A program made the translations under genes and the position numbers. 64,000 nt of DNA from Gemmatimonadaceae bacterium. GTDB lineage: Bacteria; Gemmatimonadota; Gemmatimonadetes; Gemmatimonadales; Gemmatimonadaceae. The notes beneath the pieces were generated by a model. It was not told the DNA's origin and made no database searches. It worked only from the letters and a program-made list of their open reading frames with translations. Location of the stretch: contig JAHBVT010000001.1 of NCBI GenBank assembly GCA_019637355.1, forward strand, positions 744,001 to 808,000, written 5' to 3'. Shown here piece by piece: positions 11,004 to 41,146 of the stretch (the stretch's first letter is position 1; each line of letters starts with the position of its first letter).

Positions 11004-11051
11004 ACCATTCTGGTCCGGCTAACGTGTGCTTCTGCTGCAGGTGCTCCAATA

Positions 11052-12472
11052 GTTGGTATGAAGCGGCGGCTGGACCTCCGCCCATCCACGGGTGCAAGGT
11101 TCTGCCCCATACCATCTACCGTGCTCGCCGTCTCGCGACGGGGCACACTGCGGAGGCCAGCCGCCATGGATATGATAGGCATCGATCTCCACAAGCGCGA
11201 GAGCCAGCTCTGCATCCTCGACGGGCAGGGCGGCGTCACCGAACGACGCATCGTCACGAGCCGCGACCGCTTCACCGCGGTGCTGGGCGCGCGTCCGCCC
11301 GCACGCATCCTCGTCGAGGCGTCGACCGAGAGCGAGTGGGTCGCGTGCCACCTGGAGGCGCTGGGCCACGAGGTGGTCGTCGCCGACCCGAACTTCGCGC
11401 CGATGTACGCCACGCGCAGCCGGCGGGTGAAGACGGACAAGCGCGATGCGCGGACCCTGGCTGACGCGCTCCGGCTCGGCGCCTATCGTCCGGCGCACCG
11501 CGTCTCGGCGGCGCGGCGGCATGTGCGCGCCGAGTTGGCGGTGCGCGAGGCCTTGGTCCGCACACGCACGCGATGCATCGCGCTCGCCAAGGCCCTCGTG
11601 CGCCGCGACGGCCTGCGCGTGCCGAACAGCACGGCCGCGTGGTTTGTCGAACGACTCACCGCGCTCCCGCTCTCGCCGGTGCTGGCGGCCGAGCTCGCGC
11701 CGCTGGTCGCGATCCTCGCGCCGCTGAACGTGCAGATCGCGGCCGCCGACGCGCGCATCGCGGCGCTCGGGCGGACGGACCCGATCGTCGCGCTGCTGCA
11801 GACGGCCCCCGCCGTCGGGCCGGTGACGTCCAGCGGCATCGTCGCGATCGCGGATGACATCGGCCGGTTCCCGTCGGCGCACCAGTTCGAGGCCTTCCTC
11901 GGGTTGGTGCCCGGGGAGCGGAGCTCGGGCGAGAAGCGGCGACTCGGCCACATCACGAAGGCGGGCAACCGGCGCGCGCGCTATCTCCTGGTCGAGGCGG
12001 CGTGGCGCATCCTCCGCTCCAAGTCAAGCGACACCGCGGTGTTGCGGGCGTGGGCGCAGCGCATCCTGCATCGCCGCGGCACGAAGATCGCGGCGGTCGC
12101 GCTGGCGCGGCGGCTCGCGGGCATCCTCTATGCGATGTGGCGGGACCAGCGGGCGTACGACGCGGGCCACCTGCGGACGCCGCAGCCCGTGCCGGCGTCC
12201 GCCGCATGATCGATGGGTAAGGGCAGGACCTGCGTGGGATCGAGATGACTGAATCGGGAGTGGTGAGCGCGACGCATTTTATGGCCGCAGGTGAGAGCCG
12301 CCCCATAGTTGGCGCCACCATTCCTTCGCAGACCCCAATGCGCCAAGGCCTCGGGCCTCACGAGCGAGCGCGAACAGAAGGATGAGCAGCACCTCGAGCA
12401 GCGCAGGCACAACGGAGAACTGCAACAGCGTCAACGCACCTGGGGCTTGACGCGGGCCGCCGCTTCACAGAA
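11052..12472 (+). mobile_element. IS1111-type element, copy A, inserted in attC
   Basis: A 1421-base element running from GTTGGTATGAAGCGGCGGC to GCCGCCGCTTCACAGAA. The 12-base inverted repeats (TGAAGCGGCGGC and GCCGCCGCTTCA) are subterminal, set in by several bases, as in the IS1111 group of the IS110 family. Removing it restores CCAATA-GAATGCG, the same target position as in the four other copies. No target duplication. About 110 bases precede the transposase and about 260 non-coding bases follow it. Confidence 0.9.
11166..12209 (+). CDS. IS110/IS1111-family DEDD transposase, copy A
   Basis: A 347-residue transposase starting MDMIGIDLHKRESQLC, whose first aspartate belongs to the RuvC-like DEDD domain; ILVEASTESEW carries the glutamate and KTDKRDARTLADALRLG the late aspartates. 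The C-terminal Transposase_20 domain has APAVGPVTSSGIVAIADD, FEAFLGLVPGERSSG and GHITKAGNRRARYLL with the serine proposed to be catalytic in this family. IS1111 relatives use a structured non-coding end of the element to choose targets. Reading frame intact; differs from copy C by a handful of bases. Confidence 0.93.
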   Translation: MDMIGIDLHKRESQLCILDGQGGVTERRIVTSRDRFTAVLGARPPARILVEASTESEWVACHLEALGHEVVVADPNFAPMYATRSRRVKTDKRDARTLADALRLGAYRPAHRVSAARRHVRAELAVREALVRTRTRCIALAKALVRRDGLRVPNSTAAWFVERLTALPLSPVLAAELAPLVAILAPLNVQIAAADARIAALGRTDPIVALLQTAPAVGPVTSSGIVAIADDIGRFPSAHQFEAFLGLVPGERSSGEKRRLGHITKAGNRRARYLLVEAAWRILRSKSSDTAVLRAWAQRILHRRGTKIAAVALARRLAGILYAMWRDQRAYDAGHLRTPQPVPASAA

Positions 12473-14480: not shown

Positions 14481-14581
14481 GCTTGGAACCTGTCGCGGAG
14501 GGGCGGGGGGCGCAACTGCGGACGTCCCGGAGTCGGTGGCGAGGCCGCGTAACGTGTGCTTCTGCTGCAGGTGCTCCAATA

Positions 14582-16002
14582 GTTGGTATGAAGCGGCGGC
14601 TGGACCTCCGCCCATCCACGGGTGCAAGGTTCTGCCCCATACCATCTACCGTGCTCACCGTCTCGCGACGGGGCACACTGCGGAGGCCAGCCGCCATGGA
14701 TATGATAGGCATCGATCTCCACAAGCGCGAGAGCCAGCTCTGCATCCTCGACGGGCAGGGCGGCGTCACCGAACGACGCATCGTCACGAGCCGTGACCGC
14801 TTCACCGCGGTGCTGGGCGCGCGTCCGCCCGCGCGGATCCTCGTCGAGGCGTCGACCGAGAGCGAGTGGGTCGCGTGTCACCTGGAGGCGCTGGGCCACG
14901 AGGTGGTCGTCGCCGACCCGAACTTCGCGCCGATGTACGCCACGCGCAGCCGGCGGGTGAAGACGGACAAGCGCGATGCGCGGACCCTGGCTGACGCGCT
15001 CCGGCTCGGCGCCTATCGTCCGGCGCACCGCGTCTCGGCGGCGCGGCGGCATGTGCGCGCCGAGTTGGCGGTGCGCGAGGCCTTGGTCCGCACACGCACG
15101 CGATGCATCGCGCTCGCCAAGGCCCTCGTGCGCCGCGACGGCCTGCGCGTGCCGAACAGCACGGCCGCGTGGTTTGTCGAACGACTCACCGCGCTCCCGC
15201 TCTCGCCGGTGCTGGCGGCCGAGCTGGCGCCCTTGATCGCGGTGCTCGCCCCGCTGAACGTGCAGATCGCGGCCGCCGACGCGCGCATCGCGGCGCTCGG
15301 GCGGACGGACCCGATCGTCGCGCTGCTGCAGACGGCCCCCGCCGTCGGGCCGGTGACGTCCAGCGGCATCGTCGCGATCGCGGATGACATCGGCCGGTTC
15401 CCGTCGGCGCACCAGTTCGAGGCCTTCCTCGGGTTGGTGCCCGGGGAGCGGAGCTCGGGCGAGAAGCGGCGACTCGGCCACATCACGAAGGCGGGCAACC
15501 GGCGCGCGCGCTATCTCCTGGTCGAGGCGGCGTGGCGCATCCTCCGCTCCAAGTCAAGCGACACCGCGGTGTTGCGGGCGTGGGCGCAGCGCATCCTGCA
15601 TCGCCGCGGCACGAAGATCGCGGCGGTCGCGCTGGCGCGGCGGCTCGCGGGCATCCTCTATGCGATGTGGCGGGACCAGCGGGCGTACGACGCGGGCCAC
15701 CTGCGGACGCCGCAGCCCGTGCCGGCGTCCGCCGCATGATCGCTGGGTAAGGGCAGGACCTGCGTGGGATCGAGATGACTGAATCGGGAGTGGTGAGCGC
15801 GACGCATTTTATGGCCGCAGGTGAGAGCCGCCCCATAGTTGGCGCCACCATTCCTTCGCAGACCCCAATGCGCCGAGGCCTCGGGCCTCACGAGCGAGCG
15901 CGAACAGAAGGATGAGCAGCACCTCGAGCAGCGCAGGCACAACGGAGAACTGCAACAGCGTCAACGCACCTGGGGCTTGACGCGGGCCGCCGCTTCACAG
16001 AA
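14582..16002 (+). mobile_element. IS1111-type element, copy B, inserted in attC
   Basis: A 1421-base copy with the same ends, the same subterminal inverted repeats and the same attC position (CCAATA-AAATGCGG on removal) as copy A. It shares a distinctive block near 15229-15250 with copy E, so B and E are closest relatives. Confidence 0.92.
14696..15739 (+). CDS. IS110/IS1111-family DEDD transposase, copy B
   Basis: A 347-residue intact transposase with all motifs listed for copy A. It differs from copies A and C by APLIAVLAPL in place of APLVAILAPL around residue 180 and is indistinguishable from copy E at protein level as far as can be read. Confidence 0.93.
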   Translation: MDMIGIDLHKRESQLCILDGQGGVTERRIVTSRDRFTAVLGARPPARILVEASTESEWVACHLEALGHEVVVADPNFAPMYATRSRRVKTDKRDARTLADALRLGAYRPAHRVSAARRHVRAELAVREALVRTRTRCIALAKALVRRDGLRVPNSTAAWFVERLTALPLSPVLAAELAPLIAVLAPLNVQIAAADARIAALGRTDPIVALLQTAPAVGPVTSSGIVAIADDIGRFPSAHQFEAFLGLVPGERSSGEKRRLGHITKAGNRRARYLLVEAAWRILRSKSSDTAVLRAWAQRILHRRGTKIAAVALARRLAGILYAMWRDQRAYDAGHLRTPQPVPASAA

Positions 16003-22496: not shown

Positions 22497-22991
22497 ATGC
22501 GTGCCTGCGCGGTGCATGTCTTCGCCTTCCTATTCGTGGTCGCGGCCGAGAGCCAAGCCCAACGGCCGCGCGAGGTTGGCGTCGATCTATTCGGTGTTTC
22601 CTGGCATTACAGCTCTGACACGTATTTCGACGGAGTTGAGACGCGGCGCTATCAGGGGCGCAATCTGGGCGCCGGCCTGCACGTCACGCTGGGGGAACGC
22701 GGGCGGCACGTCTGGATGCTCAAGGCGGGCGGCTACGAGGACTCGATGTACAACCAATCCTGGTACGCCGGGCCCGTTTGGCAGTACCGGGTCATCGGAG
22801 GGCTACGCGCTGGCGCCGGTGTGCTGCTCTTCGATTCGGACTCCTACGTGACGCCGGTGATTCCGCTGCCGCTGGTGACGTATCGCGCGGGTGGGCTAGG
22901 ACTCAACATGACGTGGGTTCCTGCGGGCAACTCCGAGGCGTCCGGCGCGCTCGCCTTCTTCGGCACACTCGTGCTGTGGAGAGAGCCGTAA
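22497..22991 (+). CDS. PagP-like outer-membrane beta-barrel protein, reverse-oriented cassette gene
   Basis: About 164 residues. The ATG at 22497 is preferred because CGAGGACG lies just upstream and MRACAVHVFAFLFVVAAESQ is a signal peptide ending AQ. The mature part alternates hydrophobic strands (VGVDLFGVSWHYSS, GAGLHVTLGERGRHVW, AGPVWQYRVIGGLRAG, VTPVIPLPLVTYRAGGLGLN), ending in a tryptophan near the C-terminus as outer-membrane barrels do. The pattern resembles lipid A palmitoyltransferase PagP, but catalytic residues cannot be confirmed. It runs opposite to the array, so it needs its own promoter. Confidence 0.65.
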   Translation: MRACAVHVFAFLFVVAAESQAQRPREVGVDLFGVSWHYSSDTYFDGVETRRYQGRNLGAGLHVTLGERGRHVWMLKAGGYEDSMYNQSWYAGPVWQYRVIGGLRAGAGVLLFDSDSYVTPVIPLPLVTYRAGGLGLNMTWVPAGNSEASGALAFFGTLVLWREP

Positions 22992-23040
22992 GCCCGCGCG
23001 AGTCCACATAACGTGTGCTTCTGCTGCAAACGCTTCAATA

Positions 23041-24461
23041 GTTGGTATGAAGCGGCGGCTGGACCTCCGCCCATCCACGGGTGCAAGGTTCTGCCCCATA
23101 CCATCTACCGTGCTCGCCGTCTCGCGACGGGGCACACTGCGGAGGCCAGCCGCCATGGATATGATAGGCATCGATCTCCACAAGCGCGAGAGCCAGCTCT
23201 GCATCCTCGACGGGCAGGGCGGCGTCACCGAACGACGCATCGTCACGAGCCGCGACCGCTTCACCGCGGTGCTGGGCGCGCGTCCGCCCGCACGCATCCT
23301 CGTCGAGGCGTCGACCGAGAGCGAGTGGGTCGCGTGCCACCTGGAGGCGCTGGGCCACGAGGTGGTCGTCGCCGACCCGAACTTCGCGCCGATGTACGCC
23401 ACGCGCAGCCGGCGGGTGAAGACGGACAAGCGCGATGCGCGGACCCTGGCTGACGCGCTCCGGCTCGGCGCCTATCGTCCGGCGCACCGCGTCTCGGCGG
23501 CGCGGCGGCATGTGCGCGCCGAGTTGGCGGTGCGCGAGGCCTTGGTCCGCACACGCACGCGATGCATCGCGCTCGCCAAGGCCCTCGTGCGCCGCGACGG
23601 CCTGCGCGTGCCGAACAGCACGGCCGCGTGGTTTGTCGAACGACTCACCGCGCTCCCGCTCTCGCCGGTGCTGGCGGCCGAGCTGGCGCCGCTGGTCGCG
23701 ATCCTCGCGCCGCTGAACGTGCAGATCGCGGCCGCCGACGCGCGCATCGCGGCGCTCGGGCGGACGGACCCGATCGTCGCGCTGCTGCAGACGGCCCCCG
23801 CCGTCGGGCCGGTGACGTCCAGCGGCATCGTCGCGATCGCGGATGACATCGGCCGGTTCCCGTCGGCGCACCAGTTCGAGGCCTTCCTCGGGTTGGTGCC
23901 CGGGGAGCGGAGCTCGGGCGAGAAGCGGCGACTCGGCCACATCACGAAGGCGGGCAACCGGCGCGCGCGCTATCTCCTGGTCGAGGCGGCGTGGCGCATC
24001 CTCCGCTCCAAGTCAAGCGACACCGCGGTGTTGCGGGCGTGGGCGCAGCGCATCCTGCATCGCCGCGGCACGAAGATCGCGGCGGTCGCGCTGGCGCGGC
24101 GGCTCGCGGGCATCCTCTATGCGATGTGGCGGGACCAGCGGGCGTACGACGCGGGCCACCTGCGGACGCCGCAGCCCGTGCCGGCGTCCGCCGCATGATC
24201 GCTGGGTAAGGGCAGGACCTGCGTGGGATCGAGATGACTGAATCGGGAGTGGTGAGCGCGACGCATTTTATGGCCGCAGGTGAGAGCCGCCCCATAGTTG
24301 GCGCCACCATTCCTTCGCAGACCCCAATGCGCCGAGGCCTCGGGCCTCACGAGCGAGCGCGAACAGAAGGATGAGCAGCACCTCGAGCAGCGCAGGCACA
24401 ACGGAGAACTGCAACAGCGTCAACGCACCTGGGGCTTGACGCGGGCCGCCGCTTCACAGAA
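23041..24461 (+). mobile_element. IS1111-type element, copy C, inserted in attC
   Basis: A 1421-base copy at the same attC position (TCAATA-AAATGCGG on removal), with the same ends and subterminal inverted repeats. Nearly identical to copy A. Confidence 0.92.
23155..24198 (+). CDS. IS110/IS1111-family DEDD transposase, copy C
   Basis: A 347-residue intact transposase, identical to copy A at protein level as far as can be read, with all DEDD and Transposase_20 motifs. The cassette-upstream position means the element and most cassette genes are transcribed towards opposite directions. Confidence 0.93.
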   Translation: MDMIGIDLHKRESQLCILDGQGGVTERRIVTSRDRFTAVLGARPPARILVEASTESEWVACHLEALGHEVVVADPNFAPMYATRSRRVKTDKRDARTLADALRLGAYRPAHRVSAARRHVRAELAVREALVRTRTRCIALAKALVRRDGLRVPNSTAAWFVERLTALPLSPVLAAELAPLVAILAPLNVQIAAADARIAALGRTDPIVALLQTAPAVGPVTSSGIVAIADDIGRFPSAHQFEAFLGLVPGERSSGEKRRLGHITKAGNRRARYLLVEAAWRILRSKSSDTAVLRAWAQRILHRRGTKIAAVALARRLAGILYAMWRDQRAYDAGHLRTPQPVPASAA

Positions 24462-24565: not shown

Positions 24566-26065
24566 CTAGGCGCGCCGAACCGAGGGCGACGTTCCGTGCC
24601 GAATCTGCTCTCCCGCAAGTGCAGCGCGCCGCGCGCGCCTACGCTCTTCGTGCAAGACTGCAGCGGAAAAGTACCACACGGCGGCCTTGGCTACGCGGCC
24701 AAGTGCGAACGCGGATTCCTCCAGAGTCGAGCGGTCGACAAGCGTTAACTCACTTTTCGCTCCGGGCACCGACGAATGCGAAAGCACGAGGCGATGCTCA
24801 ATGCCGTGCCTGAGCTCTCTCAAATGGGAGTAGCGTCCCTTTCCCCTCTCAAGAGACCGTGTCAGCTCAAATAATGCAGTGAGCCCGTGGTTGTCGGTCC
24901 GATAGAGCCGGCGTCGCATATCTGACTCGGTGCTCGGCAAGCTCCGCGCACCGTCCTTTCTGTGCCAAATGGATTCGAGTGTCACGGCCTGAGGCGCGAG
25001 CCCCAAACGGAAGTAGACATTTACTGCGTACGCGACGTTGTTGAGGAGCGAGAAGAAAGCTGTGCAAGCAGACATCAGAAGTCCGCTCGAGAGGCCAAAC
25101 TCAGCTCCAGATCCGGTTGGCACATACACCTGATGCTCGCTCTCGCGCACGGCATGCTTTGACACTGCCGCGTACAAGTGCCAGCGTGCAGTTGCATAGC
25201 CTTGGCAAAGGCGGTTGACCATATCGAGCACGAGGTCGACTGGCACGCTGCGCCTTGGAGCTGAGAAGTGGCCTTGAAGCGGAAAAAGGTCGAACACGGC
25301 GGGCGTGTCAACGCGACAGAGTGGACACGGATTCAATGCCAAGCGCGAACTCCAGATCCACTTCTGGTAGTCAGAGGGCGTGACAGTCTCCAACGGAAAG
25401 TGCCTGACATGTCTAGCTAGAGCATCTCGGTGCTTGCGATAGCTGTCCGCAAAGACAATGTCCGCACCCGCTAGCTCAACTGCGCGGTCGTAGTCCTGGT
25501 ATGCAGCGAGAAGAAGTGCAGCGTGCTGCGGAAGCCAGTGGCTAAGCTGCACGAGGCAGCCAGCGCGCATCGCGACCGACTGGTGATGATTCGGGACCTG
25601 AAGGAGTACTGTTTCGTACTCGTCGAGGGCCTCGAACAGGCGCCACTGAAGTCGGAACGAAGTGGCAAGATTGGTGCGAGTATCCGGCGATTCCTTGGAG
25701 CGAAGGCTCTCGTCAAGTTCGCTGATAGCGCGTGAGTTGGCTATGCGCCGCCACGGACCTCTCCCGCGCTCGAACCGGGCAGTTTCCGCATAACCGTTTC
25801 CGAGGTTGTAGTGATACGCGGCACGATACTCGCTCGGTACATCGTCGCCTACTGACTCGATCAGCGCGCGCCCCTCCGCCACAAGCCGCCTATTGCCAAG
25901 CTGTGCACCTGCATCTATCAGAATGCCGCCTAGGCTCATCGCTGCTGAGAACGGGTCCTCAACGAGTCGTGAAGTCTGTCTGGCGAGGCGCACGGCCGAA
26001 CGGCTCTCGCCAATCGAGAGCAAGCGTTGGCACTCTGCGAACAAGAGAGCGGGGTCCGATGTCAA
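24566..26065 (-). CDS. large cassette protein resembling LA2681-type HEPN proteins
   Basis: About 499 residues from a TTG at 26065, the only plausible start between the attC and the conserved body (alternatives are not ATG or GTG). The N-terminal half is a tetratricopeptide-like helical region (YHYNLGNGYAETARFE, LATSFRLQWRLFEALDEYET). The centre has a CPLC pair (LNPCPLCRVDTPAVFD). The C-terminal part FFSLLNNVAYAVNVYFRLGL then HLRELRHGIEHRLVLSH carries R-x4-H (RHGIEH), like the LA2681 HEPN group. Such proteins are usually linked to RNA cleavage in conflict systems; function here is not shown. It is the longest single cassette gene in the array. Confidence 0.7.
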   Translation of the reverse strand: MTSDPALLFAECQRLLSIGESRSAVRLARQTSRLVEDPFSAAMSLGGILIDAGAQLGNRRLVAEGRALIESVGDDVPSEYRAAYHYNLGNGYAETARFERGRGPWRRIANSRAISELDESLRSKESPDTRTNLATSFRLQWRLFEALDEYETVLLQVPNHHQSVAMRAGCLVQLSHWLPQHAALLLAAYQDYDRAVELAGADIVFADSYRKHRDALARHVRHFPLETVTPSDYQKWIWSSRLALNPCPLCRVDTPAVFDLFPLQGHFSAPRRSVPVDLVLDMVNRLCQGYATARWHLYAAVSKHAVRESEHQVYVPTGSGAEFGLSSGLLMSACTAFFSLLNNVAYAVNVYFRLGLAPQAVTLESIWHRKDGARSLPSTESDMRRRLYRTDNHGLTALFELTRSLERGKGRYSHLRELRHGIEHRLVLSHSSVPGAKSELTLVDRSTLEESAFALGRVAKAAVWYFSAAVLHEERRRARRAALAGEQIRHGTSPSVRRA

Positions 26066-26113
26066 GTGTTGCTCTGAACGCTGTGGCGATTGACGGCGAG
26101 AGCGGAGCCAGTC

Positions 26114-26209
26114 CGTATAACGTACGCTTCTGCTGCAGGTGCTCCAATAAACCGCGCGGGCGTAGCCCGCGCTACCAAGGGCACCTGTCGGCAGCAAGCC
26201 GCGTTATGC
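26114..26209 (-). other. attC 16 (short type)
   Basis: About 95 bases; inner arms CAGGTGC and GCACCTG perfectly complementary; short loop CGCGCGGGCGTAGCCCGCGC; outer boxes TATAACG and CGTTATG. Confidence 0.92.
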
Positions 26210-26382
26210 GGAGGTATTCGGCAGCGCCGCGATTCGGCGCCCTGCGCTCCGCGTTCGGGTCCGGTCGCACACGCCGCGCGCGGAATCTTCCGCACGGACC
26301 ACCTAAAGTGCGTTGGGGGGCGCGCACGGCGAGCCGGCGTTTCGCCGCGACGCCTCGGAAGCTCCGCGGACTCGGACCCTGC

Positions 26383-26477
26383 CGCATAACGTACGCTTCT
26401 GCTGCAGGTGCTCCAATAAAACGCGCGGGCGTAGCCCGCGCTACCAAGTGCACCTGTCGGCAGCAAGCCGCGTTATG
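26383..26477 (-). other. attC 15 (short type)
   Basis: Same short form as attC 16: arms CAGGTGC/GCACCTG, loop GCGCGGGCGTAGCCCGCGC. Confidence 0.92.
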
Positions 26478-26651
26478 CGGAGGTTCTCGGCTGCACCGCG
26501 ATTCGGCGCCCTGCGCTACGCATTGGGATCCGGTCGCCGACGCCGCGCGCGGATCCTTCCGTACGGACCACCTGAGGTGCCGTGGGGGGCGCGCACGGGA
26601 AGCCAGCGTTTCGTGGCGACGCCTCGGAAGCTTCGTGGACTCGGACCCTGC

Positions 26652-26746
26652 CGCATAACGTGTGCTTCTGCTGCAGGTGCTCCAATAAAACGCGCGGGCG
26701 TAGCCCGCGCTACCAAGGGCACCTGTCGGCAGCAAGCCGCGTTATG
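26652..26746 (-). other. attC 14 (short type)
   Basis: Same short form as attC 16, with outer box CATAACGTG where attC 13 and 15 have CATAACGTA. Confidence 0.92.
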
Positions 26747-26920
26747 CGGAGGTGTTCGGAAGCGCCGCGATTCGGCGCCCTGCGCTGCGCGTTGGGGTCC
26801 GGTCGCCCACGCCGCGCGCGGAACCTTCCGCACGGACCACCTAAAGTGTGTTGGGGGGCGCGCACGGCGAGCCGGCGTTTCGTCGCGACGCTTCGGAAGC
26901 TTCGTGGACTCGGACCCTGC

Positions 26921-27014
26921 CGCATAACGTACGCTTCTGCTGCAGGTGCTCCAATAAAACGCGCGGGCGTAGCCCGCGCTACCAAGTGCACCTGTCGGCA
27001 GCAAGCCGCGTTAT
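26921..27014 (-). other. attC 13 (short type)
   Basis: Same short form as attC 16: arms CAGGTGC/GCACCTG, loop GCGCGGGCGTAGCCCGCGC. Confidence 0.92.
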
Positions 27015-27189
27015 GCGGAGGTGTTCGGAAGCGCCGCGATTCGGCGCCCTGCGCTGCGCGTTGGGGTCCGGTCGCCCACGCCGCGCGCGGAACCTTCCGG
27101 ACGGACCACCTCAAGTGTGTTCGGGGGTGCGCACGGCGAGCCGGCGTTTCGTCGCGACGCCTCGGAAGCTCCGCGGACTCGGACCCTGC

Positions 27190-27327
27190 CGCATAACGTG
27201 TGCTTCTGCTGCAAGCGCTCCCATAAAACGCGGTTGTGGGGCCTCAGCAGACCGTGGTTCAAGATGAAGCTGAGGCCCCACAACCGCTACCGCCCCTGCG
27301 CTTGTCGGCAGCAAGCGGCGTTAGGCG
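27190..27327 (-). other. attC 12
   Basis: Inner arms CAAGCGC and GCGCTTG perfectly complementary; loop hairpin GCGGTTGTGGGGCCTCAGC with GCTGAGGCCCCACAACCGC; right outer box GCGTTAGG. Confidence 0.92.
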
Positions 27328-27351
27328 GCGTGTCGCCCGCTGCCGGAGGCG

Positions 27352-27714
27352 CTAGAAGTGCAGGTCGAGCGGATACAAGTGGATGCTCTCGCATCCTGGC
27401 TGTTCGGAGAAGAGCGTCAATGCATGACCTGAATCGAACTCGAGGCGAATGGACGTGGGCGACGCGACTGTGGCGCGCACGACCGTAGCGTCGAGCGCGT
27501 CGAAGCCCTGGCGCGCAGGATGGGGCGTTCCGTCAGCGGAATAGTTTGAGATGGCACCTGACGCGTCTCGCAGTTCCCAGCGTCCGTCGACGCCAATGCC
27601 GGTGAAGTGCGGTCCATCGAAGCGAAAGTGCACGACGAAACTGGCGATGCCCACCTCCTGCAGCATCGAGCCGACGTAGGCGCTGAGGTCAAGTGCCGCA
27701 GGTATAGCTTGCAA
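27352..27714 (-). CDS. small hypothetical cassette protein
   Basis: A 120-residue soluble protein read from a TTG at 27714 with GAGGAG immediately upstream. Beta-rich: IASFVVHFRFDGPHFTGIGV, GRWELRDASGAIS, SIRLEFDSGHALTLFSE, ending ESIHLYPLDLHF. The alternating strand pattern and length resemble small immunity-like or DUF6188-like proteins, but no family can be named with confidence. It ends 24 bases before attC 12 and begins 21 bases after attC 11, so it fills its cassette. Confidence 0.65.
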   Translation of the reverse strand: MQAIPAALDLSAYVGSMLQEVGIASFVVHFRFDGPHFTGIGVDGRWELRDASGAISNYSADGTPHPARQGFDALDATVVRATVASPTSIRLEFDSGHALTLFSEQPGCESIHLYPLDLHF

Positions 27715-29999: not shown

Positions 30000-30050
30000 G
30001 GGGCTACTCGGGTCCGGCTAACGTGTGCTTCTGCTGCGAGGGCTCCCATA

Positions 30051-31473
30051 GTTGGTATGAAGCGGCGGCTGGACCTCCGCTGATTCGCGGGTGCAAGGTT
30101 CTGCCCCAGATACCATCTACCGTGCTCACCGTCTCACGACGGGGCACACAGCGGAGGCCAGTCGCCATGGATATGATAGGCATCGATCTCCACAAGCGCG
30201 AGAGCCAGCTCTGCATCCTCGATGCGGACGGGCACGCGACCGAACGGCGCATCGTCACGAGCCGCGACCGCTTCACGGCGGTGCTGGGATCGCGTCCGCC
30301 CGCCCGGATCCTCGTCGAAGCCTCGACCGAGAGCGAGTGGGTCGCGTGCCACCTGGAGGCACTCGGGCACGCGGTGGTCGTCGCCGACCCGAACTTCGCG
30401 CCGATGTATGCCACGCGCAGCCGCCGGGTGAAGACGGACAAGCGCGATGCGCGCACCCTGGCCGACGCTCTCCGGCTCGGGGCCTATCGCCCGGCGCATC
30501 GGGTCTCGGCGGCCCGGCGCCACATCCGCGCCGAGCTCGCCGTGCGCGAGGCTCTCGTCCGCACGCGCACGCGGTGCATCGCCCTGGCGAAGGCGCTCGT
30601 GCGCCGCGACGGCCTGCGCGTACCGAACAGCACGGCCGCGTGGTTTGTCGAACGACTCACCGCGCTCCCGCTCGCGCCGACGCTCGAGGCCGAGCTCGCG
30701 CCGCTGGTCGCGGTGCTCGGGCCGCTGACCGTGCAGATCGCGGCCGCCGACGCCCGCATTGCGGCGCTCGGGCGGACGGACCCAATCGTGGCGCTCCTGC
30801 AGACGGCTCCCTCCATCGGGCCGGTGACATCGAGCGGCATCGTCGCGATCGCGGATGACATCGGCCGGTTCCCGTCGGCGCACCAGTTCGAGGCGTTCCT
30901 CGGGTTGGTGCCCGGGGAGCGGAGCTCGGGCGAGAAGCGGCGGCTCGGCCACATCACGAAGGCGGGCAACCGGCGCGCGCGCTATCTCCTGGTCGAGGCG
31001 GCGTGGCGCATCCTCCGCTCCAAGTCGGCCGACACGGCGGTGCTCCGCGCGTGGGCGCAGCGCATCCTGCATCGCCGCGGCAAGAAGATCGCGGCGGTCG
31101 CGCTGGCGCGGCGGCTCGCGGGCATCCTCTATGCGATGTGGCGGGACCAGCGGGCGTACGACGCGGGCCACCTGCGGATGCCGCAGCCCGTGCCGGCGTC
31201 CGCCGCGTGATCGAGCAGTGACGGTAGGACCTGCGTGGGATCGGGATGACTGAATCGGGAGTGGTGAGCGCGACGCATTTTATGGCCGCAGGTGAGAGCC
31301 GACCCATAGTTGGCGCCACCATTCCTTCGCAGACCCCAATGCGCCGAGGCCTCGGGCCTCACCAGCGAGCGCGAACAGAAGGATGAGCAGCACCTCGAGC
31401 CGCGCAGGCACAACTGAGTCGTGCAACAGCGTCAACGCACCTGGGGCTTGACGCGGGCCGCCGCTTCACAGAA
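30051..31473 (+). mobile_element. IS1111-type element, copy D (diverged), inserted in attC
   Basis: A 1423-base copy at the same attC position (CCCATA-AGATGCGG on removal) with the same subterminal repeats, but many scattered base changes compared with copies A, B, C and E. It is either an older insertion or a separately acquired relative. Confidence 0.92.
30167..31210 (+). CDS. IS110/IS1111-family DEDD transposase, copy D
   Basis: A 347-residue transposase with the same motifs as copy A but about 20 amino-acid differences (for example ADGHATERR for GQGGVTERR, SRPPARI for ARPPARI, APSIGPV for APAVGPV). Reading frame intact. Most base changes against the other copies are silent, suggesting selection on the protein. 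Confidence 0.93.
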   Translation: MDMIGIDLHKRESQLCILDADGHATERRIVTSRDRFTAVLGSRPPARILVEASTESEWVACHLEALGHAVVVADPNFAPMYATRSRRVKTDKRDARTLADALRLGAYRPAHRVSAARRHIRAELAVREALVRTRTRCIALAKALVRRDGLRVPNSTAAWFVERLTALPLAPTLEAELAPLVAVLGPLTVQIAAADARIAALGRTDPIVALLQTAPSIGPVTSSGIVAIADDIGRFPSAHQFEAFLGLVPGERSSGEKRRLGHITKAGNRRARYLLVEAAWRILRSKSADTAVLRAWAQRILHRRGKKIAAVALARRLAGILYAMWRDQRAYDAGHLRMPQPVPASAA

Positions 31474-32134: not shown

Positions 32135-32229
32135 AGCCTAACGTACGCTTCTGCTGCAGGTGCTCCAATAAACCGCGCGGGCGTAGCCCGCGCTACCAAG
32201 GGCACCTGTCGGCAGCAAGCCGCGTTATG
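32135..32229 (-). other. attC 9 (short type)
   Basis: Inner arms CAGGTGC/GCACCTG, loop CGCGCGGGCGTAGCCCGCGC, identical in form to attC 13-16. Confidence 0.92.
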
Positions 32230-32403
32230 CGGAGGTATTCGGTAGCGCCGCGATTCGGCGCCCTGCGCTCCGCGTTGGGATCCGGTCGCCCCCGCCGCGC
32301 GTAGATCCTTCCGCACGGACCACCTAAAGTGTGTTGGGGGGCGCGCACGGCGAGCCGGCGTTTCGCCGCGACGCCTCGGAAGCTTCGTGGACTCGGACCC
32401 TGC
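32230..32403 (-). repeat. fifth copy of the gene-less cassette body
   Basis: About 174 bases closely matching the bodies in the tandem block at 26.1-27.2 kb, and followed by its own short-type attC 9. It is 5 kb away from the block, so the cassette has been copied or mobilised as a unit. The MRQGPSPRSFRGVA frame is open here and runs on through the attC. Confidence 0.85.
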
Positions 32404-32542
32404 CGCATAACGTCAGCTTCTGCTGTGAACGCTTCAATAAGAAGCAGTTGTGGGGCGGCCGCTAGGCCGTCCCATTCTCTACAGGGCGGCCGCCCCACAA
32501 CTGCATCCGCACCGCGTTCATCAGCAGCAAGCGTCGTTATGG
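32404..32542 (-). other. attC 8
   Basis: Inner arms TGAACGC and GCGTTCA perfectly complementary; loop hairpin GCAGTTGTGGGGCGGCCGC with GCGGCCGCCCCACAACTGC; right inner arm variant CAGCAGCAAGC. Confidence 0.92.
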
Positions 32543-32983: not shown

Positions 32984-33035
32984 GAGTCTCTCCCTGCTCG
33001 CCATAACGTGTGCTTCTGCTGCAAGCGCTCCCATA

Positions 33036-34456
33036 GTTGGTATGAAGCGGCGGCTGGACCTCCGCCCATCCACGGGTGCAAGGTTCTGCCCCATACCATC
33101 TACCGTGCTCACCGTCTCGCGACGGGGCACACTGCGGAGGCCAGCCGCCATGGATATGATAGGCATCGATCTCCACAAGCGCGAGAGCCAGCTCTGCATC
33201 CTCGACGGGCAGGGCGGCGTCACCGAACGACGCATCGTCACGAGCCGTGACCGCTTCACCGCGGTGCTGGGCGCGCGTCCGCCCGCGCGGATCCTCGTCG
33301 AGGCGTCGACCGAGAGCGAGTGGGTCGCGTGTCACCTGGAGGCGCTGGGCCACGAGGTGGTCGTCGCCGACCCGAACTTCGCGCCGATGTACGCCACGCG
33401 CAGCCGGCGGGTGAAGACGGACAAGCGCGATGCGCGGACCCTGGCTGACGCGCTCCGGCTCGGCGCCTATCGTCCGGCGCACCGCGTCTCGGCGGCGCGG
33501 CGGCATGTGCGCGCCGAGTTGGCGGTGCGCGAGGCCTTGGTCCGCACACGCACGCGATGCATCGCGCTCGCCAAGGCCCTCGTGCGCCGCGACGGCCTGC
33601 GCGTGCCGAACAGCACGGCCGCGTGGTTTGTCGAACGACTCACCGCGCTCCCGCTCTCGCCGGTGCTGGCGGCCGAGCTGGCGCCCTTGATCGCGGTGCT
33701 CGCCCCGCTGAACGTGCAGATCGCGGCCGCCGACGCGCGCATCGCGGCGCTCGGGCGGACGGACCCGATCGTCGCGCTGCTGCAGACGGCCCCCGCCGTC
33801 GGGCCGGTGACGTCCAGCGGCATCGTCGCGATCGCGGATGACATCGGCCGGTTCCCGTCGGCGCACCAGTTCGAGGCCTTCCTCGGGTTGGTGCCCGGGG
33901 AGCGGAGCTCGGGCGAGAAGCGGCGACTCGGCCACATCACGAAGGCGGGCAACCGGCGCGCGCGCTATCTCCTGGTCGAGGCGGCGTGGCGCATCCTCCG
34001 CTCCAAGTCAAGCGACACCGCGGTGTTGCGGGCGTGGGCGCAGCGCATCCTGCATCGCCGCGGCACGAAGATCGCGGCGGTCGCGCTGGCGCGGCGGCTC
34101 GCGGGCATCCTCTATGCGATGTGGCGGGACCAGCGGGCGTACGACGCGGGCCACCTGCGGACGCCGCAGCCCGTGCCGGCGTCCGCCGCATGATCGCTGG
34201 GTAAGGGCAGGACCTGCGTGGGATCGAGATGACTGAATCGGGAGTGGTGAGCGCGACGCATTTTATGGCCGCAGGTGAGAGCCGCCCCATAGTTGGCGCC
34301 ACCATTCCTTCGCAGACCCCAATGCGCCGAGGCCTCGGGCCTCACGAGCGAGCGCGAACAGAAGGATGAGCAGCACCTCGAGCAGCGCAGGCACAACGGA
34401 GAACTGCAACAGCGTCAACGCACCTGGGGCTTGACGCGGGCCGCCGCTTCACAGAA
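33036..34456 (+). mobile_element. IS1111-type element, copy E, inserted in attC
   Basis: A 1421-base copy at the same attC position (CCCATA-AAATGCGG on removal), essentially identical to copy B including the 22-base diagnostic block around 33683. The copy closest to the integrase. Confidence 0.92.
33150..34193 (+). CDS. IS110/IS1111-family DEDD transposase, copy E
   Basis: A 347-residue intact transposase matching copy B at protein level as far as can be read, with all DEDD and Transposase_20 motifs. High identity to copies A-C implies recent spread within this array. Confidence 0.93.
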   Translation: MDMIGIDLHKRESQLCILDGQGGVTERRIVTSRDRFTAVLGARPPARILVEASTESEWVACHLEALGHEVVVADPNFAPMYATRSRRVKTDKRDARTLADALRLGAYRPAHRVSAARRHVRAELAVREALVRTRTRCIALAKALVRRDGLRVPNSTAAWFVERLTALPLSPVLAAELAPLIAVLAPLNVQIAAADARIAALGRTDPIVALLQTAPAVGPVTSSGIVAIADDIGRFPSAHQFEAFLGLVPGERSSGEKRRLGHITKAGNRRARYLLVEAAWRILRSKSSDTAVLRAWAQRILHRRGTKIAAVALARRLAGILYAMWRDQRAYDAGHLRTPQPVPASAA

Positions 34457-39854: not shown

Positions 39855-39880
39855 AGGTCCGCGTAACGTGGATTATACGC
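39855..39880 (-). other. candidate attI core and cassette promoter -10 box
   Basis: On the minus strand, TATAAT (39872-39877) is followed 4 bases later by CGTTACGC (39861-39868), which has the GTT core and flank of the R' boxes at the attC ends. It is the only such core between the integrase gene and the first cassette gene, where attI and the cassette promoter must be. No good -35 box is visible at 16-18 bases. Confidence 0.55.
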
Positions 39881-39975
39881 AAAACGAACACATCCGCTCC
39901 GCGCTATTTCCCACGTTGCACCCCGTACCCAAATCCCGCAACTCCCCACGCACCCCAGCCTTAACCCTCGCGACC

Positions 39976-41016
39976 TCACCGCGGTTCTCCAGAATTAGCT
40001 TGCAAGGAACTCGCACTGGTCCGGCCGAAGTCCAACGGGCTCCGAACCCCCAATCCGCCCTTGTTCAGCACGTGCGTGTAGATCATCGTCGTGCTCACAT
40101 CCCGATGGCCGAGTAGTTCCTGAACAGTGCGTATGTCGTAGCCAGCCTCCAACAGGTGCGTCGCAAAACTGTGCCGGAAGGTGTGGCAGGTCACGCGCTG
40201 GGCGAGCCCGGCGGCGCGAGCGGCCTGGGTCACGGCGCGCTGCACGACGCTGGCGTCAAGATGATGGCGGCGCACGATGCGGGACTCGGCTTCGGTGTAG
40301 GTGCGCTGCGCCGGAAAGAGCCACTGCCACCCTAGCGCGGTGGCGGCGCCACGGGACTTGCGCTCGAAAGCGTCGGGAAGGACGACTCCGCCGTAGCCGC
40401 GCGCACGGTCGCGGTCGCGGAGCTTCTTGACGGCACCGATCTGCTGGCGCAGCGGCGGGATGAGGCTGGCGGGCAGCATTGTCCGACGGTCACGGGCGCC
40501 CTTGCCAGCGCGTACGATGACTTCGCCGCGATCGAGGTCGATGTCCTTGACGCGCAGCGCGACAGCCTCACCGACGCGGAGGCCGCTTCCATAAAGCAGG
40601 CTGGCGGCGAGCCAGGTCGCCCCGCTGAGCTGCTCGAGCACGAGTTGTATGGCGCCTCGGCTCAGGACGGTGGGGATGTGATGGCTGCGCTTGGCGGGCA
40701 GGAGCCCGTCGGGCGCGCCCATCGGGATGGCAAGGACGACGTTGTACAGGAACAGGATGGCGGAGAGAGCCTGATTCTGAGTGCTGGCGCTGACGTCGCG
40801 CTCCTCGACGAGGAAGGTGAGGAAGCGCCGCACGTGGCTGGCGTCGAGCTCGGTTGGGTGGCGGAGCCCGTGGTACCTGATGTACCGGCGCACCCAGGCA
40901 GAGTAGACCTCGATGGTCCGCGCGCTGTAGCGGCGGCCGCGGAGGACGACGGCGAGCTCGTCGAGCAGGCCGGGAGCGGACTCGGCGGCAGGCTCGGGCA
41001 GGCTGGGTACGGTCAC
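39976..41016 (-). CDS. intI: integron integrase (tyrosine recombinase)
   Basis: A 346-residue tyrosine recombinase from a GTG at 41016. [20 protein letters not shown] holds the first catalytic arginine, [20 protein letters not shown] the H-x-x-R pair, [20 protein letters not shown] the last histidine and the nucleophilic tyrosine. The IntI-specific insertion (patch III) is present: [20 protein letters not shown] then [16 protein letters not shown], absent from XerC/D. The N-terminal SAM-like domain ([20 protein letters not shown]) is complete. Its 3' end faces the cassette array, with attI beyond its stop codon, the reverse of class 1 integrons. A run of 32-base repeats covers its start. Confidence 0.95.
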
Positions 41017-41146
41017 GGAGTTCGCCGAGGCAGGCTGGGTACGGTCACGGAGTTCGCCGAGGCAGGCTGGGTACGGTCACGGAGTTCGCCGAGGCAGGCT
41101 GGGTACGGTCACGGAGTTCGCCGGGGCAGGCTGGGTGCGGTCGCGG
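40999..41146. repeat. 32-base tandem repeats over the integrase start
   Basis: Four full units (40999, 41031, 41063, 41095) and a partial fifth (41127), each CAGGCTGGGTACGGTCACGG then AGTTCGCCGAGG. The first unit contains the integrase GTG codon. Units 1-3 are identical and unit 4 differs by one base. The unit length is not a multiple of three. They may set integrase expression or translation. Confidence 0.9.

Follow-up and report, generated by a model that had tools for sequence, protein, structure and literature searches.

Whether gene-less integron cassettes are kept up as selfish elements or for a regulatory role is a question that goes back to 2006 or earlier. It arises again at a locus of a Gemmatimonadaceae bacterium where, within the 64,000 nucleotides analysed here (the window), one 269-base cassette stands four times in a row and a fifth time further along. 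What is this unit, does its body carry a function, and how did its copies come to lie side by side? We lean towards a short non-coding cassette family that is driven by recombination and is selfish or nearly neutral, which is the reading that best fits the data.

The repeated cassette, its array and its relatives

TRF delimits an array of period 269 at 26113-27232 (4.2 copies, 92% matches), and a repeat finder places units at 26113, 26382, 26651, 26920 and 32134, with identities of 90-95%. Chance is excluded, and the tandem repeat and the distant fifth copy described in an earlier note on this DNA are real. In recombination-site coordinates, in which the cut points are shifted rightward by 7 bases from the starts given there, four units run head to tail at 26121-27196, each with a body of about 174 bases followed, on the minus strand, by a 95-base attC. 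In that direction the first tandem cassette (W_10, 26928-27196) has its body at 27017-27196 and its attC at 26928-27016, the second (W_11, 26659-26927) has them at 26748-26927 and 26659-26747, the third (W_12, 26390-26658) at 26479-26658 and 26390-26478, and the fourth (W_13, 26121-26389) at 26210-26389 and 26121-26209, the latter plus the R' hexamer. The fifth copy (W_7, 32142-32410), on the same strand, has its body at 32231-32410 and its attC at 32142-32230.

All 16 full family members have G|TT boundaries and their own 95-nt attC on the left-hand side in plus coordinates, whereas the length of the attC to their right varies, and of the 89 cassette bodies scored, 84 have their best ORF on the minus strand. 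This association of body and attC, the strand of the best ORFs and the placement of intI indicate a minus-strand orientation of the cassettes, and the order of attC then body previously given for plus coordinates is therefore correct. A plus-strand orientation was considered, the attC ends being nearly symmetric, and is ruled out by the same association and by the gene strand. The R'', L'', L' and R' arm motifs are present in all copies. By inspection, there are extra bases on the L'' side, and the arms read on the cassette strand GCTT-G-CTGC-CGA on the left and GCAGAAGC on the right.

The cassette array of the window extends on the minus strand over 13240-39539, with 22 attC sites, these being the ones found by a motif search that missed sites interrupted by insertion sequences. 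At 39976-41016, on the minus strand and with its 3' end towards the array, lies intI, an intact ORF of 346 aa that encodes a predicted integrase with Phage_integrase and SAM-like domains. The first cassette begins GTTACGCGGAC at about 39866, reading leftward, and between this start and the intI stop lies the putative attI region (39867-39975), so that attI would adjoin the intI 3' end. Since the cassettes read leftward from an intI of the same direction whose 3' end faces the array, the layout is that of a reverse integron. Such integrons are listed for Treponema, Chlorobium and Blastopirellula (PMC6557892), and the reversed intI layout is thus one that the present integron has in common with those of Treponema. 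A 32-bp unit occurs in 4.7 tandem copies (97%) at 40997-41146, spanning the 5' end of the gene and the sequence immediately before it, and could alter the integrase N-terminus or the intI promoter. The window also holds five copies (92-99.5%) of an IS110-family insertion sequence of about 1.44 kb (PF01548, PF02371), at 11020-12461, 14539-15991, 22951-24450, 30019-31462 and 33002-34445. Those at 30019 and 33004 each come after an attC left half, at the identical point, in which they are like the IS1111-attC group.

We searched the genome (3.15 Mb in one large and two small contigs) and delimited 151 cassettes in its arrays (G000) and in those of a congener with 99% 16S identity (G011). Its RpoB has 78-83% identity to that of three Gemmatimonadota MAGs and about 50-59% to that of most of the other genomes compared, with one MAG labelled Gemmatimonadota reaching only 63%, and a Gemmatimonadota host is accordingly the most likely. 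The five copies first reported are all present, but the genome-wide total is far higher: there are at least 16 full members, of which 14 belong to type A and two to a diverged type B, and each carries a 95-nt attC. A pair of type C relatives with a 118-nt attC, and one type D relative in G011, have body ends in common with the family. When 17 genomes from this genus were scanned with a sequence model, clear members turned up in G000 and G011 only. Other relatives searched gave only attC or chance-level matches, a plasmid search gave no match to the family, and exact-pattern scans of genome and viral collections were empty. With at least 16 copies and clear members confined to two genomes, the family is paralogous in the manner of the Vibrio non-coding cassettes, but it lacks the high conservation that would suggest purifying selection, as body identity within the genome falls as low as 62%. 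The first 25 nt or so of the body are conserved in an alignment with the diverged relatives and could be a small functional element.

A second gene-less family, E, has a body of about 243 nt, with a conserved 5' end and a variable middle, and a 139-nt attC. Thirteen copies were delimited and at least 15 exist overall across G000 and G011, in runs of up to three (for example, G000 C1 2539052-2540054 and G011 C1 3126035-3131996). In one of its reading frames synonymous changes are weakly in excess (P=0.024, uncorrected). A further short gene-less family, F, has three copies, two of them adjacent.

Coding, RNA and promoter tests of the body

The earlier statement that no one reading frame is preserved throughout the copies needs qualifying. 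One cassette-strand frame is in fact free of stops in each of the five window copies, but no start codon lies close to its 5' end, and synonymous changes in it are depleted (8 against 16.6 expected). The frame that the R' box ATG opens (MRQGPSPRSFRG...) is disrupted in two of the five. A small protein made from the R' box ATG would account for the ten of 16 copies in which this frame is stop-free and for the similarity of its N-terminus in diverged relatives. The remaining six copies, however, have stops or frameshifts, and synonymous changes are not significantly in excess (21 against 17 expected, P=0.17). There is no Pfam match, and the sense-strand ORF has no plasmid match. Small ORFs on either strand are rejected as an explanation, and we consider a protein product highly improbable. 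Neither frame has the synonymous bias of a conserved small protein, and the suggestion that the cassette has been kept or amplified for a reason other than a protein is borne out by this lack of coding bias and by the stop-broken ATG frame. In having no conserved ORF or synonymous pattern, the body is non-coding in the sense used for the Vibrio cassettes.

A small regulatory RNA would suit a cassette that is gene-less and multi-copy, and it has a precedent in sRNA-Xcc1 from an ORF-less cassette of Xanthomonas (cited in PMC6557892). On either strand, however, the body folds no more stably than shuffled sequences (z from -1.1 to +1.9), and the covariation check proposed in the earlier note gives a term of 0.01 and no support for an RNA. 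The sole fully kept helix is the inverted repeat of the cassette ends, which is present in nearly every cassette. Rfam gives no match at gathering thresholds and only chance-level matches at a lax threshold, none of them in the bodies. With neither excess stability nor covariation in these tests, an RNA of this kind is very unlikely.

The main live rival is a promoter cassette, the body of which drives the cassettes downstream, several in a row adding strength. Most of the gene-less Vibrio cassettes tested have sense-strand promoter activity (PMC11014356), ORF-less cassettes of Treponema also have promoter activity (PMC6557892), and across relatives of the present family conservation is highest at the body's 5' end. 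The body is, however, very GC-rich with no AT-rich stretch, and a scan of 26050-27400, which non-consensus promoters would escape, finds no sigma-70-like site (0.1 expected). The downstream neighbours vary among loci, and the attC hairpin is followed on the same strand by TTTTATT, as in a terminator; this tail is not specific to the family, since similar ones follow the hairpins of other attCs that we inspected. We hold a promoter role to be unlikely. Of the three options originally raised (an RNA, a promoter or selfish duplication) the selfish one fits best, the RNA being without support and the promoter without sigma-70 support. The missing signal of function is weak evidence for a functionless body, as promoters outside the sigma-70 consensus escape detection.

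Movement and clustering of the copies

Homology among the 16 copies begins and ends exactly at G|TT, and the flanks are unrelated. A block of three units, 807 bp in length, is 99.1% identical between the window and an array at 3.134 Mb, and its homology stops at the integrase cut point. Single bodies recur in the same way. The body of W_11 is 100% identical to that of R3110_3 and the body of W_12 is identical to that of R3110_4, both in a distant array on the same chromosome, and the body of W_7 is 100% identical to those of R2530_33 and R2530_39 in another array, identical bodies being present at three sites with different neighbours. Judged by sequence, these boundaries show that the mobile unit is exactly one cassette between integrase cut points and that the family has been copied between distant arrays, both singly and as a three-cassette block. 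Because the flanks switch at G|TT and the block ends at the cut point, we attribute both kinds of event to the integrase. Runs of one cassette can evidently persist and travel as blocks.

The run could instead have grown from one founder by replication slippage or unequal crossing-over alone, without the integrase. W_10 is indeed a recombinant of its neighbour, a mosaic with one breakpoint that is like R3110_2 at seven informative sites and then like W_11 at four, and this shows that homologous exchange within bodies takes place. The tandem neighbours, however, differ by 4-13% (87-96% identity), as much as they differ from distant copies; W_11 is 89% identical to W_12 and 100% identical to R3110_3. 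Since the units are as diverged from each other as from distant copies, the run does not stem from recent slippage, and blocks and single copies have moved between arrays with cut-point precision. Slippage or crossing-over as the sole mechanism is largely refuted, and we rate it as quite unlikely. The same divergence between units argues against an assembly artefact in a repetitive region, as do tandem runs at several loci with different flanks. The assembly is imperfect, since fragments of arrays lie on the small contigs C2 and C3, and an artefact as the source of the run is barely credible.

In 132 of the 151 cassettes of the G000 and G011 arrays exactly the first 8 nt (5' consensus TTANNNSGA) form the complement of the last 8 nt of the same cassette. 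Position 9 pairs in only 5% of cassettes, and pairing with the end of the neighbour mostly covers 3-4 nt. As the ends match their own cassette and mostly not the neighbour, the stem of the R box seems to be lengthened to 9 bp and maintained for the circular form.

Type A cassettes form eight adjacent pairs against 2.6 expected under random order (P=0.0002). The three gene-less families pooled form 12 against 4.7 (P=0.00025), and this excess remains without the shared block (P=0.001); for families E and F alone the excess is not significant. Matching of R' boxes was considered as the cause of adjacency and rejected, as unrelated neighbours with the same R' box are not in excess (7 against 6.0 expected, P=0.40). 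Since an R' box match alone gives no excess, the identity of the whole cassette matters, which points to an action through homologous recombination or attC identity. Gene-bearing cassettes have no adjacent pair, against 0.8 expected, a difference that is not significant, and the restriction of tandems to gene-less cassettes is therefore descriptive only. The view that a tandem array of one cassette is out of the ordinary, as recombination ought to remove it, is correct only in part: adjacency within a family is not random here, families E and F also form tandems, a Diaphorobacter integron (below) does likewise, and copy-and-paste makes adjacent duplicates (PMC8024014).

A proposed history and its parallels

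We propose that the integrase excises the bottom strand of a cassette as a circle, which would re-insert at an attC while the donor copy is left in place, that is, by copy-and-paste. Insertion beside a resident copy, through attC x attC or through homologous recombination between circle and resident, would produce tandem runs with the precise 269-base spacing. The integrase would thus amplify the copies and homologous recombination would reshuffle them. The body would do little or nothing sequence-specific for the host, and the family may persist because it recombines well, is short and is harmless. Duplication by copy-and-paste, including an aadB-aadB tandem, has been demonstrated experimentally elsewhere (PMC8024014).

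Among type A copies, there are 58 changes over 186 body sites (0.31 per site) and 4 over 83 attC sites (0.05), so that the body changes 6.5 times faster per site than the attC (Fisher P=3e-7). The ratio of attC to body divergence is 0.0-0.5 in the gene-less families, and it is 1.8-3.4 in several gene-bearing families whose multiple copies have diverged and 0.28 in one other gene-bearing family, many of these gene-bearing comparisons being between species. However, attCs at least 92% alike are found across unrelated cassettes, in about 20 classes, many of which span G000 and G011, which suggests homogenisation or re-use of attCs when cassettes are formed. As a general homogenisation could cause it, low attC divergence is no proof of an unconstrained body, and we do not take slow attC evolution as proof of a selfish one, an argument weakened by this sharing and by the between-species comparisons. 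A stricter form of the selfish reading is a true integron parasite, in which only a highly recombinogenic attC and the short ends are conserved, the body is drifting filler, and the element spreads by copy-and-paste and lands preferentially beside its own copies. We regard this as possible but doubtful; if it is true, the integron has a selfish element of its own that is comparable to a MITE.

Boucher et al. (2006, PMC1382264), in those parts of their paper on which we draw, describe short, ORF-less, paralogous cassettes in Vibrio superintegrons, of a single lineage and many per genome, with 45 copies of a paralogous non-coding cassette in V. vulnificus CMCP6, and both selfish and regulatory roles are proposed there. 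The present cassettes are likewise short, ORF-less, lineage-restricted and rich in paralogues within a genome. They differ in belonging to another phylum, in their unrelated sequence and in bodies far more diverged than the attCs, and they cluster in tandem, of which those parts of the paper make no mention. With the promoter cassettes of the Vibrionaceae (PMC11014356) and Treponema (PMC6557892) they have in common a gene-less body, an own attC and a chromosomal integron. Promoter activity has been measured in those, whereas no consensus promoter is found in the present family. As in duplication by IntI1, where semi-conservative excision and attC x attC insertion give adjacent duplicates (PMC8024014), copies lie side by side; that process was driven by selection for a resistance gene, whereas here the cassette has no gene to select. 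In kind, then, the phenomenon is already known from the Vibrio non-coding paralogues and from the copy-and-paste tandems of class 1 integrons (PMC1382264, PMC8024014). The novelty lies in the lineage, in a sequence unrelated to those cassettes, in a significant clustering in tandem, in the block transfer and in the strongly divergent bodies. A genome outside Vibrio with several independent multi-copy gene-less families makes it possible to compare the evolution of body and attC and to put the selfish and regulatory alternatives to a direct test.

Tandem hits in two public integron loci (L079 and L113) were set aside, as by inspection they have no attC-like sites. In Diaphorobacter nitroreducens (L109, 432-1518), near-identical short units with attC-like sites stand in tandem and adjoin intI, with periods of 279 (99.6%) and 262 (88.6%). 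This is a Betaproteobacterium in which the sequence is unrelated, intI has the standard orientation and the units appear non-coding by eye. As this integron also carries a tandem, the pattern is wider than the present genus.
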